Shown: positions 33,171 through 62,859 of the stretch, piece by piece | How positions within the stretch are numbered: position 1 is the first letter of the stretch | Layout: each line of letters opens with the position of its first letter | From: Pseudonocardiaceae bacterium YIM PH 21723 | Lineage (GTDB): Bacteria > Actinomycetota > Actinomycetes > Mycobacteriales > Pseudonocardiaceae | Length of the DNA: 64,000 nt | Direction: 5' to 3' | Assembly (NCBI GenBank): GCA_003600225.1 | Contig: QZFT01000045.1 | Location: 186,001-250,000 of the forward strand | Notes under the pieces: generated by a model | Told to the model about the DNA's origin: nothing | The model's database searches: none | What the model saw: the letters and a program-made list of their open reading frames with translations, nothing else | Translations under genes and position numbers: made by a program

Positions 33171-33350
33171 GGGGCGGTGGGGCGGGCGCAGGATATTTGC
33201 GCCCACTCACGCCTCAAGGGCGCTTCGCGTCCGGCTTCGCCGGATCAGCCTTCGGCTGACCCTTGACCCGTGAGCCTCTGGCGCAAAAACGGGCAGATGA
33301 AGGGCAGGCTGGGGCCTGCCCTCTTCAGGGGCGCGCCCGCCCCACCGCCC
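33171..33350 (+). repeat. Long inverted repeat, left copy, with cloverleaf-like fold
   Basis: About 180 bases, roughly 93% identical by hand alignment to the reverse complement of 34610-34794. It includes GGGCGCA/TGCGCCC (33184-33190 and 33198-33204), then a 69-nt fold at 33206-33274. Its outer stem is CTCACG/CGTGAG plus TCAAGGG/CCCTTGA, around three small hairpins with ttc loops. A further hairpin agggcagg/cctgccct follows at 33301-33322. It lies between the stop of the HNH gene and the sufR promoter. Confidence 0.85.
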
Positions 33351-33366
33351 TACCGGGCCTGCTCCG

Positions 33367-34506
33367 CTAACCATCTGGATCGGCTCCCGGATCCATCCGG
33401 ACCAAGATCTTGGTTCCCCTCGGCGAAGTCCACAGCAGGTCACCGTTCGGAAGGATCTCGTAGCTCCAGTGGTGCTGGTCTTTGAGGATGTGGTGCCGTC
33501 GACACAGTGGCGCCATGTCCCGGCCCCGGGTGATCTTGCAGTGTTGGTACTGCTCCCGATGATCCAGATCGCTGGCGACGGCCGGTGCCTGACAGTTCGG
33601 GAACCGGCATGTCTTGTGGCGAGCGATCAAGAAGTTCCGCTCGGCCTGACTCAGTCGATATCCCTTGCGGGAGAAGTCGATCCCCACACCGGTCATCGGA
33701 TCGGTGATCATCCGCAACCAGGTGGGGGCGGTCGCCGCCATCTGACGGGCCATCGACCCGAGGATCGCTCCGTGGCCCTGCATCTCGGCGCCATGCTCCT
33801 GCTTGCCCTCGATCACATCCTTCGGGATCGTGATCACGATCTTCGGATCCACCGGCGCGAAACCCTCACTACCGGCACCACCAGCAGTGAGCACCGCGGC
33901 GGCGAGGTCGGCGCGGGCTTGATCTTGAGTCCGTTCGTCATCGGTGGTTCGCGTGTTGCGGACCTGCTGATCAATCGCCTGATACGCCGCCTGCACCTCC
34001 GGCGCCGTCGAATACAACCGCAGCTCGCCCATCCCGTCCGGCTTGCTGCTCACCGTGAACGACCGGTCCTTCTTCCGACGCTCGTGCCGCTCCTGCGCGC
34101 CATGTGGATCAAGCTCTTGGATGTACCGCTCACCCAACGCCCGCATCTCCGAATTCGACAACTCATGCGCGGTGGGCAGAACCTTCTCCTCAACCAAACC
34201 CGCCAACTCACTGTCGAGGGGTTTGGTGAGGGAATGCAGCATCTGCGCTTTGGCGAGATCGATCCCACCTGAAGCGAGGGCTTCTTGCGTGCACGGCAAC
34301 TTCACGTGCAGCGCCTCGGCCAGCGCGATGAAATGGCGGAGCTGAGCCGAACTGACCGTCATCTCGACCCGGGTCTCTTCCCGATCCGAATCACAGTCCA
34401 ACGACGTCGACAACAACTCGCGCAGGTCCTGAAGGAAGTCAGCCGTCACCGTGGCGATGAGCCGGTATTTACCGGCCACGCTCTGCGGTGTCAGCTCTTT
34501 CCTCAT
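33367..34506 (-). CDS. DUF222/HNH endonuclease (13E12-repeat family), in the inverted repeats
   Basis: A 379-residue protein. The N-terminal DUF222 region (about 5-250) is helical, and the C-terminal HNH module has C(R)FPNC, SDLDHREQY, APLCRRHHILKDQHHW. The two pairs of zinc Cys, the Asp-His and the His-His residues are present. Proteins of this type are very numerous in actinobacterial genomes and in mycobacteria belong to the 13E12 repeat; their mode of spread is not known, and some act as phage integration sites. The ATG at 34506 is the natural start. It is enclosed by inverted repeats of about 180 bp, giving an element of about 1.6 kb (33171-34794). Confidence 0.88.
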   Translation of the reverse strand: MRKELTPQSVAGKYRLIATVTADFLQDLRELLSTSLDCDSDREETRVEMTVSSAQLRHFIALAEALHVKLPCTQEALASGGIDLAKAQMLHSLTKPLDSELAGLVEEKVLPTAHELSNSEMRALGERYIQELDPHGAQERHERRKKDRSFTVSSKPDGMGELRLYSTAPEVQAAYQAIDQQVRNTRTTDDERTQDQARADLAAAVLTAGGAGSEGFAPVDPKIVITIPKDVIEGKQEHGAEMQGHGAILGSMARQMAATAPTWLRMITDPMTGVGIDFSRKGYRLSQAERNFLIARHKTCRFPNCQAPAVASDLDHREQYQHCKITRGRDMAPLCRRHHILKDQHHWSYEILPNGDLLWTSPRGTKILVRMDPGADPDG

Positions 34507-34609
34507 GCCTCCATTTTAGTCGAACACCAAGGCGATTTCGAATCACTATCAGGTGATTAATACAAGATCAACTCGCGCCGTAGGTTACCCCTGAACTACT
34601 GGAGCGGGT

Positions 34610-34794
34610 CGGTGGTGGGCGGGCGCGCCCCCCAAGAGGGCAGGCCCCAGCCTGCCCTATATCTGCCCGTTTTTGCGCCAGAGGCTCACGGGTCAAGGGT
34701 CGCCCGAAGGGCGATCCGGCGGAGCCGGACGCGAAGCGCCCTTGAGGCGTGAGTGGGCGCAAATAAACTGCGCCCGCCCACCACCGCCCCGCCC
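34610..34794 (-). repeat. Long inverted repeat, right copy, with cloverleaf-like fold
   Basis: The reverse-complement partner of 33171-33350. The same 69-nt fold spans 34685-34753. Its third arm is TCGCCC/GGGCGA (34700-34705 and 34709-34714), whereas the left copy has TCAGCC/GGCTGA. Two base pairs differ on both arms, so pairing is preserved. It begins two bases beyond the AsnC gene stop codon (34796), and so may also end that transcript. Confidence 0.85.
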
Positions 34795-34795
34795 A

Positions 34796-35245
34796 TTAAG
34801 AGGGCGCCTGAACCCCCCGATAAGACAAAGTCTCGCTATAGACGATGTTCGTAGTGGTGCTCCCAAAAGCCGCCAACTCATCCACCACCCTCTCCAGGTG
34901 ACCCATCGAAAGAGCGGCCACCTTCAGCGTGTAGCAATCCTCCCCAGTAGTCCGAAGACACTCGACGATCTCCACCCGCTCAGCCAGCAACCGGTGCAAC
35001 GGCCCATGCTGACTCCCCGGGTATTTCAACCGGATCACCGCCAGCACCGCGTACCCGGTCGCCCCCAGATCCACGACGGCCCGGTACCCGGTGATCACCC
35101 CAGCCTGCTCCAGCCGCCGAACCCGTTCAGTGGTGGCCGACGCACTCAGGCTCACCCGCCGGCTGAGCTCGGTGAGCGGTAGCCGGCCGTCGGTTTGCAG
35201 CTCAGTCAGAATCGCCCAGTCCGTCGCATCAAGAGTCTCGGCCAC
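34796..35245 (-). CDS. Lrp/AsnC family transcriptional regulator
   Basis: A 149-residue regulator. The N-terminal HTH is LDATDWAILTELQTDGRLPLTELSRRVSLSASATTERVRRLEQAGVI, and the C-terminal RAM domain contains VIRLKYPGSQ and VECLRTTGEDCYTLKVA. AsnC-type proteins bind amino acids in the RAM domain and form octamers. It is divergent from the LLM oxidoreductase gene with 93 nt between starts, so it may control that gene and the deaminase and kinase genes following it. Confidence 0.92.
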   Translation of the reverse strand: MAETLDATDWAILTELQTDGRLPLTELSRRVSLSASATTERVRRLEQAGVITGYRAVVDLGATGYAVLAVIRLKYPGSQHGPLHRLLAERVEIVECLRTTGEDCYTLKVAALSMGHLERVVDELAAFGSTTTNIVYSETLSYRGVQAPS

Positions 35246-61234: not shown

Positions 61235-61502
61235 TCTTTGCCTCTTGGTTCTTGGGGGCGAGCTGGTTTTAGTTGGCACTGAAACCATAGCAGGTTGGGA
61301 GGGGGTTGAGGGGTTGGCTGTTGCTTCTGGTGGGTTTTCGAAGGATGGCTTTGGAGGACGGGGCGGGATTGGGTCTTTCCTTTGGGTTGTCCCGTTGTGG
61401 GCGTTTTCGGGGTCTTAGGCGACTGTGGGGCCCCATTTTTACACCCATGTGGGTTATCTTGTGAATTCGATATCGGCATTGTGTGCGAGTAATATCGAAG
61501 AC
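61235..61502. other. G/T-rich leader of the second HNH gene
   Basis: No gene is supported. The segment 61261-61440 is 73% G+T on the plus strand by my count (G 73, T 59, C 28, A 20). A weak tata-like stretch lies near 61465-61480, so the promoter is probably there. The bias reverses to A+C after the gene. Confidence 0.6.
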
Positions 61503-62630
61503 ATGAGCGATGACTACGAGTACACGGCGGACGGGTTTGAGGTGCTGGTCAAACGGCACCGCAAGGACGCTGCTGTGATGCGCTCGTATGCCGCCCGCAT
61601 GGCCGAGGAACGCGGTGACTACCAGTTCGTCGCGGATGTGATCGGTGAGGTGATGGGGATGTCTCCTCGCCGTGCGGCGAACTGGCTGGAAGTCGCCCAG
61701 GCGTTGGATGGTCCGTTGCGGTCCACATTCGAAGCCTTGCTGGCTGGGGAGATCTGCGAGGAGCGGATGCACGCGATCTACTCGAAGACCCAATGGTTGG
61801 CGGCGGACAAGGTTGCGGCGGTGGAGCAGGTCGCGTTGGACAACGCCTTGTGGTCCTCACCGAGGGAACTCGCCGGGATCATGGACGAGGAGATCCTGCG
61901 GGTCGATCCCGATGGGTACGCGGATCGGAAGTCGCGGCGGATGCATCAACGAAAACTGGAGCACCGCACAGGATCCGACGGCGTCTCCACGCTGGCGATC
62001 ACCGGTGATGAAGCGACCAATCACGCGATCACCCAGCACGTGGGCGCGCTGGCGAAGAAGCTGCGGCGCGACGGTGATGAGCGGGAGATGGATCAACTGC
62101 GCTGCGACATCTCCCAACAACTCCTACTCGGCACCTTCGACGGTGCCGGGGAGGTGAAGGCGGAGATCATCGTCCACCTCACCCCGGACATCCTCGCCGG
62201 GTTCTCCGACGCACCCGCACAAGTCGCGGGAATGGGACCGATCGCAGCCCACGTCGCGAGGGACTACGCAACCAAAGGCGACTGGTACCGGTTGGTCGAG
62301 GACCCAGTGACTGGAGTCGGCATCAAAGCCGAGACCAAGTCACGGTTCCCCACGCCGGGAATGCGCAGGCTGTTGTTCTCCACCCACAAAACGTGCTCCG
62401 CACCGTTCTGCATGGCAGCGGCGGTGACCTGCGACATCGACCATTGCCGACGCCACGAGGACGGCGGCAAAACCTGCATCTGCAACCTGCTACCCCTGTG
62501 CCGACACCACCACCGACTCAAAGACGAAGGCAACTGGAACTACACCAAAAACCCGGATGGCTCGGTCAAGTGGACAACCGACGAAGGCCGCGTGATCACC
62601 AAACCCCTGAGGCCCCACAAACGCAACTGA
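61503..62630 (+). CDS. DUF222/HNH endonuclease (13E12-repeat family), second copy
   Basis: A 375-residue protein from the ATG at 61503. DUF222 spans about residues 10-250, and the HNH module contains SAPFCMAAAVTCDIDHCRRH, CNLLPLCRHHHRLKDEGNW. The zinc Cys, Asp-His and His-His residues are present. It shares little sequence with the copy at 33367-34506, so these are not recent duplicates. No flanking inverted repeat like the 33/34 kb pair is visible, but the flanks show opposite G+T and A+C bias (see findings). Confidence 0.88.
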   Translation: MSDDYEYTADGFEVLVKRHRKDAAVMRSYAARMAEERGDYQFVADVIGEVMGMSPRRAANWLEVAQALDGPLRSTFEALLAGEICEERMHAIYSKTQWLAADKVAAVEQVALDNALWSSPRELAGIMDEEILRVDPDGYADRKSRRMHQRKLEHRTGSDGVSTLAITGDEATNHAITQHVGALAKKLRRDGDEREMDQLRCDISQQLLLGTFDGAGEVKAEIIVHLTPDILAGFSDAPAQVAGMGPIAAHVARDYATKGDWYRLVEDPVTGVGIKAETKSRFPTPGMRRLLFSTHKTCSAPFCMAAAVTCDIDHCRRHEDGGKTCICNLLPLCRHHHRLKDEGNWNYTKNPDGSVKWTTDEGRVITKPLRPHKRN

Positions 62631-62759
62631 ACCCCGACCAGAGCCGGAGTGGGGCCGCACCCAACCCCGGCGTGTCCCCACCCACGACAAGGAGCCCCCA
62701 TGGATCTCCCCCACATCCCGGGGCCAACAGAGGGTGGGGCGTTGCGGCCCCAAGGAGGT

Positions 62760-62824
62760 GCTGGGCTGCGGCTGTCAACCACCACCAGAAGCCCAAAGCT
62801 GAGTTTTGACAGCCGCAGCCCAGC
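62760..62824. terminator. Terminator after the second HNH gene
   Basis: Perfect 19-bp inverted repeat: arm gctgggctgcggctgtcaa at 62760-62778 and complement at 62806-62824, with a 27-nt loop. It lies about 130 nt after the HNH stop codon in the 296-nt gap before the next gene. Confidence 0.75.
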
Positions 62825-62859
62825 GCCTCACCATCGAAAGCCGCCCCAGCCGCCCCACC

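Follow-up and report, generated by a model that had tools for sequence, protein, structure and literature searches.

The window, the whole stretch of 64,000 nucleotides from Pseudonocardiaceae bacterium YIM PH 21723 that we analysed, contains a unit that looks like a mobile element of a kind previously undescribed for the DUF222/HNH family. The unit is comprised of a single gene predicted to encode a DUF222/HNH protein and two inverted, structured repeats that form its ends (Table 1). The explanation that fits best, to which we give slightly less than an even chance, is that it is a mobile, gene-converting DUF222/HNH element that acts through its hairpin ends.

The unit and its copies in the host genome

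A repeat search of the window found two inverted arms (33180-33342 and 34617-34779) of 163 nt that are 93% complementary and spaced by 1274 nt, with one intact DUF222/HNH open reading frame between them. This agrees with an earlier note on this DNA, which had described repeats about 93% identical facing each other across a single gene. A 19-nt core of the repeat occurs only twice within the window compared to 0.04 occurrences expected. Relative to shuffled sequences, the two ends have z-scores of -9.6 and -8.6 when folded as DNA, and folding as RNA gave -7.8. About 1 nt separates the outer edge of the U end from the stop codon of an AsnC-type gene on the minus strand (34796-35245).

Table 1. 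Features of the unit, in positions of the window; the boundaries of the two ends are the edges common to all copies.
Feature	Position	Strand	Basis or remark
Whole unit, family-B copy, about 1.62 kb	33173..34794	-	Boundaries common to 14 copies
D end (3' of the gene), structured inverted repeat	33173..33350	-	GNA-loop strand is the gene's strand
D-end core	33203..33278	-	Model R1, 89.7 bits; C35:219203-219278
DUF222/HNH gene, 379 aa	33367..34506	-	Intact open reading frame, Pfam match
U end (5' of the gene), structured inverted repeat	34604..34794	+	Boundaries from comparison of all copies
U-end core	34681..34756	+	Model R1, 89.7 bits; C35:220681-220756

The earlier note had proposed searching the genome for further copies of the repeat. 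With the 200-bp end as query, the host genome (G000, 7.6 Mb in 111 contigs) yielded 40 matching pieces on many contigs, mostly in (-)...(+) pairs about 1.4 kb apart. Thus, the inverted-repeat arrangement is far beyond chance. The genome contains 14 genes of this family, which we call family B, each intact, 379 aa long and with 87-94% amino acid identity to the window copy. All 14 are at different loci and have the same inverted ends on both sides wherever the assembly shows both. Their flanks differ and similarity ends at the repeat edges, so that G000 holds multiple dispersed copies with the same inverted ends, as is expected of a transposable element with terminal inverted repeats. Several contigs terminate inside the repeat, so that a few further copies are hidden.

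A covariance model of the end core gave 29 strong matches in G000; judged by position, 24 of them adjoin a family-B gene, four are at contig ends and one is solo (C96:2646). This means that 24/25 of the assessable end cores adjoin a family-B gene. Assessable paired ends all enclose this same gene and no other cargo was found between them. There is also a shortened solo end on contig C41, and two U ends (L040 and L044) have internal deletions. The 5' edge of the unit is no more than 6 nt past the stop codon of a co-directional neighbour in 6 of 13 family-B copies compared to 1.9% of non-coding positions, and across all DUF222 families 18/41 units are within 30 nt of a stop codon compared to 7.5%, with unit boundaries that are partly motif-defined and genes called by a simple rule. 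No direct target duplication was evident at 13 family-B copies.

The protein from the window matches DUF222 (Pfam PF02720) with 89.3 bits, where the cutoff is 24.4, and an E-value of 3.8e-25. Its C-terminus has the HNH residues C300, C305, D315-H316, C335 and H338-H339, which are invariant in 20 relatives, and the central N of the HNH motif is replaced by D330 in family B. The Pfam HNH model did not match the protein, nor did any NCBIfam model, and a sequence search of solved structures returned none for it. An AlphaFold model (mean pLDDT 72, pTM 0.39) has a bba HNH unit and a helical part. In fold searches with this low-pTM model the DUF222 helices weakly resembled ParB/Noc DNA-binding domains (Z 7.4) and the HNH part weakly resembled TagI, IscB and McrA (Z 6-7); these predicted resemblances are leads only.

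The 14 family-B copies have a median dN/dS of 0.09 at a median dS of 0.64, showing that the protein is under strong purifying selection. The nearest relative of each copy switches from segment to segment along the gene, and this mosaic pattern indicates that the copies recombine with each other. The median dS means that they are old, with no recent burst. Thus, family-B copies are old, functional and recombining. In M. tuberculosis, gene conversion has hot spots at the REP13E12 loci, which belong to the DUF222/HNH family (PMC13061034).

Hairpin ends and the distribution of their core

The structure of each end starts with an outer stem of 17-23 bp, followed by a side hairpin and a second stem, and is topped by a head. 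The head is the core, in which three GNA-loop hairpins sit on the closing stem GGTCAAGGG/CCCTTGA. The base of the outer stem is the exact edge of the unit. Across 24 ends, 459/468 cells of the outer stem are Watson-Crick pairs, with six G-T pairs and three mismatches. Pairs in this stem swap among G-C, C-G and T-A, and these swaps fall in few haplotypes so that there are fewer independent events than cells. The variable stems also retain pairing. The pairs were counted helix by helix, as the MAFFT alignment had shifted hairpins 2 and 3 out of register. These results show that the ends are kept as a branched hairpin through compensatory changes. With a single exception, the head hairpins have GAA, GCA or GGA loops, nearly always closed by C-G, and GNA mini-hairpins are extraordinarily stable as DNA (PMC4686876). 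At both termini the GNA loops are on the strand whose 3' end points outward. In the U end of L033 the first hairpin is built from two different halves, which is expected of recombination within the repeat. Rfam gave no credible match in this region of the window or at four other core-bearing loci.

We found that the 50-nt core has matches to model R1, which was built from 18 sequences, in 67/297 genomes of the class, representing 24 of 115 genera. In an alignment of 63 distinct matches that was fitted to the model, and is therefore biased towards it, 96.1% of cells pair and 17/22 pairs covary compared to 0/500 shuffles. GNA triloops make up 115/140 of the core triloops compared to 6.7% in shuffles. 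Judged from these alignments, the end core is a conserved actinobacterial motif. None of 29 loci with such a core match has a DUF222 gene within about 1.5 kb, and four core-bearing genomes (G333, G323, G407 and G416) have no DUF222 gene anywhere. G333 has at least 16 cores. Here, inverted core-bearing arms of 360-470 bp (L331-L334) enclose genes for NmrA-like and APH-like, NUDIX, HAD and HTH, and GntR proteins, named by reading the translations and not by family search. At 42 loci of other DUF222 families the core is absent apart from two weak matches. Since the core occurs solo or paired around other genes, also in genomes lacking DUF222, the ends and the nuclease are modular. The earlier note had considered that the repeat might be a common terminator beside unrelated genes with no association to HNH genes. 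In the host genome the association holds at nearly every assessable end, but the 50-nt core is indeed widespread in actinobacteria beside unrelated genes.

Both G333 and G323 (L326-L329) have such core-bearing inverted repeats around unrelated cargo genes and, in addition, IR-IR palindromes of about 750 bp, one of them 37 kb from a contig end. Distant searches found the three-hairpin head solo in plasmids of Nocardia, Mycobacterium, Pseudonocardia, Micromonospora, Leifsonia and Curtobacterium. Solo cores (L293, L294 and L295 near 1500; L289 and L290 at 1501-1572; L282:597-655; L292:769-823) are near mobC/relaxase genes in three plasmids and near a primase-polymerase gene in two. A linear Streptomyces plasmid has one at 600 bp from its end, and another is on a 1.6-kb Curtobacterium plasmid. 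Solo GNA cores may act in single strands as a signal that serves transfer or priming.

Other DUF222 units and evidence for insertion

Among the 45 DUF222 matches in G000 there are at least four multicopy families. In families A, C and D the ends differ from those of family B and are simpler, with family A having one 55-bp palindrome. These three families (L121-L131, L132-L135 and L140) have the 5' motif GAAAGA.GGCTTTGGAGGGG upstream of the genes in common despite their different protein families. Family D has about eight copies in G000. One is in the window (61394-62859; gene 61425-62630 on the plus strand) with a 75-bp palindrome downstream at 62755-62829.

In several related genera DUF222 genes are inside long inverted repeats of unrelated sequence, about 55-380 bp long. 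These are about 130 bp in Goodfellowiella coeruleoviolacea, 57-97 bp in Lentzea flava and L. nigeriaca, and about 100-380 bp in five species of another genus (g27) that has species-specific amplified subfamilies. Long inverted-repeat pairs enclosing 0.7-2.8 kb surround a DUF222 gene in 60/63 cases from a set of 216 loci, most of which were picked for DUF222 and some of which are re-fetched duplicates. In several g27 elements, shuffled sequences fold as well as the inverted repeats do, which means that folding ends are no general property of DUF222 units. The mycobacterial DUF222 loci that we fetched have no enclosing repeats, in keeping with the earlier note, in which no described terminal inverted repeats were known for 13E12 genes.

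Empty sites were found in Lentzea. A unit common to L. alba and L. kentuckyensis sits between the stop codons of two convergent genes that are directly joined in another Lentzea species (G183). L. aerocolonigenes (G006) provides the empty site for a second DUF222 unit. The inserted unit is 1.4 kb long and extends no further than the stop codon of the gene it carries. The units at these sites are relatives that lack the second inverted repeat, and the empty sites therefore prove insertion of DUF222 units and not of family B itself. The earlier note had suggested looking for both empty sites and target duplications; no target duplication was seen at the Lentzea sites. Its description of the unit as being in the style of a mobile element gains support from these sites, from the dispersed family-B copies with the same ends and from the parallel DUF222 units bounded by inverted repeats elsewhere.

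At the L117 site the unit is absent in seven congeners. In genus g34, DUF222 copies are at orthologous loci in three species and our search for empty sites found only copies that were orthologous or decayed. In g27 the flanks could be aligned only in part. A 170-bp decayed remnant of a DUF222 unit (L141, G033:C1 about 718843-719014) occupies a site that holds the full unit in a sister species. Many DUF222 units (L222, L223 and L228-L230 of Lentzea, and L081-L087) have their 5' end right after a stop codon, and in several families the unit terminates precisely with the stop codon of the gene it carries. In L. kentuckyensis the right flank of one unit (L229 from 3567) is a high-copy repeat in several Lentzea genomes.

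Scanning genome contigs with the alignment of the 14 family-B copies, and viral contigs with the g27 alignment, found no relatives; a diverse DUF222 alignment was too variable as a search query. We found no copy of the family-B unit in phages and no near-identical copy in plasmids, and no literature on DUF222 with inverted or terminal repeats.

Candidate mechanism, alternatives and known systems

We propose a dispersed mobile element made of one DUF222/HNH nuclease gene between two inverted structured ends. The HNH protein would nick or cut single-stranded or cruciform DNA, in or close to the hairpin ends of its own unit. This would release the unit or copy it into new intergenic sites, many of them directly behind a stop codon, and would also drive gene conversion between the copies already present. 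A hairpin module that is widespread in actinobacteria is the probable source of the ends. We infer the action of the protein on the ends, and it need not recognise them, because the core is multicopy and inverted in genomes without DUF222 and other DUF222 families have unrelated ends. Those multicopy, paired cores in genomes lacking any DUF222 count against this explanation, as do the high median dS, the orthologous g34 copies in three species and the lack of visible target duplication. Target-site duplication is not universal among transposons. We are more doubtful of a broader claim, that the unit represents a new bacterial mobile-element class in which the nuclease is the sole mobility enzyme acting on folded single-stranded or cruciform GNA-hairpin ends, together with an undescribed actinobacterial DNA-structure module (three GNA hairpins on the GGTCAAGGG/CCCTTGA stem) of several mobile systems including plasmid transfer regions.

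The chief and serious rival is that the hairpin ends are an independent REP-like or MITE-like module moved or copied by other machinery, with the DUF222/HNH gene a captured passenger. We regard this as rather unlikely. The spread of the core over 24 genera, its presence in four genomes without DUF222, the differing genes enclosed by core-bearing arms in G333 and the solo ends in G000 itself all fit a passenger gene. By contrast, every assessable end pair in G000 encloses the same gene and never other cargo, and DUF222 is the constant partner in other genera where the inverted repeats are unrelated. No candidate machinery was identified and G000 has no Y1 transposase, though another enzyme could act.

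Old insertions of a resident homing-type nuclease, now engaged only in gene conversion between paralogues and with repeats that are recombination or insulation features and not transposition ends, would account for the high dS, low dN/dS and strong mosaicism, the orthologous copies in sister species, the decayed remnant in G033 and the conversion hot spots at REP13E12 loci (PMC13061034). We consider this improbable, as the empty sites speak for gains, as do the species-specific amplified subfamilies, and the insertion sites lack the extended homology that classical homing needs. A main role of the repeats at the RNA level, whether as bidirectional terminators or as processing structures flanking the gene, is very improbable. 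Each repeat is directly 3' of a minus-strand gene and the RNA fold is strong, but there is no T-tract, solo cores are near relaxase and primase genes and a plasmid end, and the C-G-closed GNA triloops, the rarity of G-U pairs and the switch of the GNA loops from one strand at one end to the opposite strand at the other are more in keeping with DNA.

The unit can be compared with several known systems. REP13E12/13E12 of mycobacteria has the same protein family, multicopy units and strong gene conversion (PMC13061034; PMC10589994). It differs in having no long structured inverted repeats around the gene at the loci fetched, and the papers that we found describe no such repeats. Free-standing HNH homing endonuclease genes are similar in that spread or conversion by cleavage and repair is plausible, and in purifying selection and decay to remnants. 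DUF222 sites, however, are dispersed and non-homologous and the units bring their own inverted ends. In REP/BIME sequences and REPINs with RAYTs, a nuclease gene lies between inverted extragenic palindromes and solo palindromes occur elsewhere, an arrangement like that of the unit. RAYTs are Y1 HUH enzymes and usually single copy, whereas the DUF222/HNH protein is in 14 copies here and the ends are about 180 nt long compared to 20-40 for REP. A REP-RAYT system was rejected, since G000 has no Y1 HUH gene (PF01797) and the same search was positive in 5/14 control genomes. IS200/IS605 elements and IscB/TnpB have structured ends, no target duplication and, in IscB, an HNH nuclease that the modelled HNH part of the protein may resemble (Z about 6; a lead only). 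In contrast to these, the unit has no TnpA or RuvC and has true long inverted repeats instead of unlike LE and RE hairpins. With DUF222/HNH as its only gene and no Y1 protein in G000, this system was rejected as well.

Many actinobacteria, M. tuberculosis among them, have abundant repeats of DUF222/HNH genes, which lack a known function. With units that are bounded, that insert and that have structured ends, it becomes testable whether the protein acts on hairpin DNA and spreads or converts its own unit. In the mobile DNA of actinobacteria, the GNA-hairpin core that these ends share with sites close to relaxases, to primases and to the end of a linear plasmid may serve as a general signal in single-stranded DNA.
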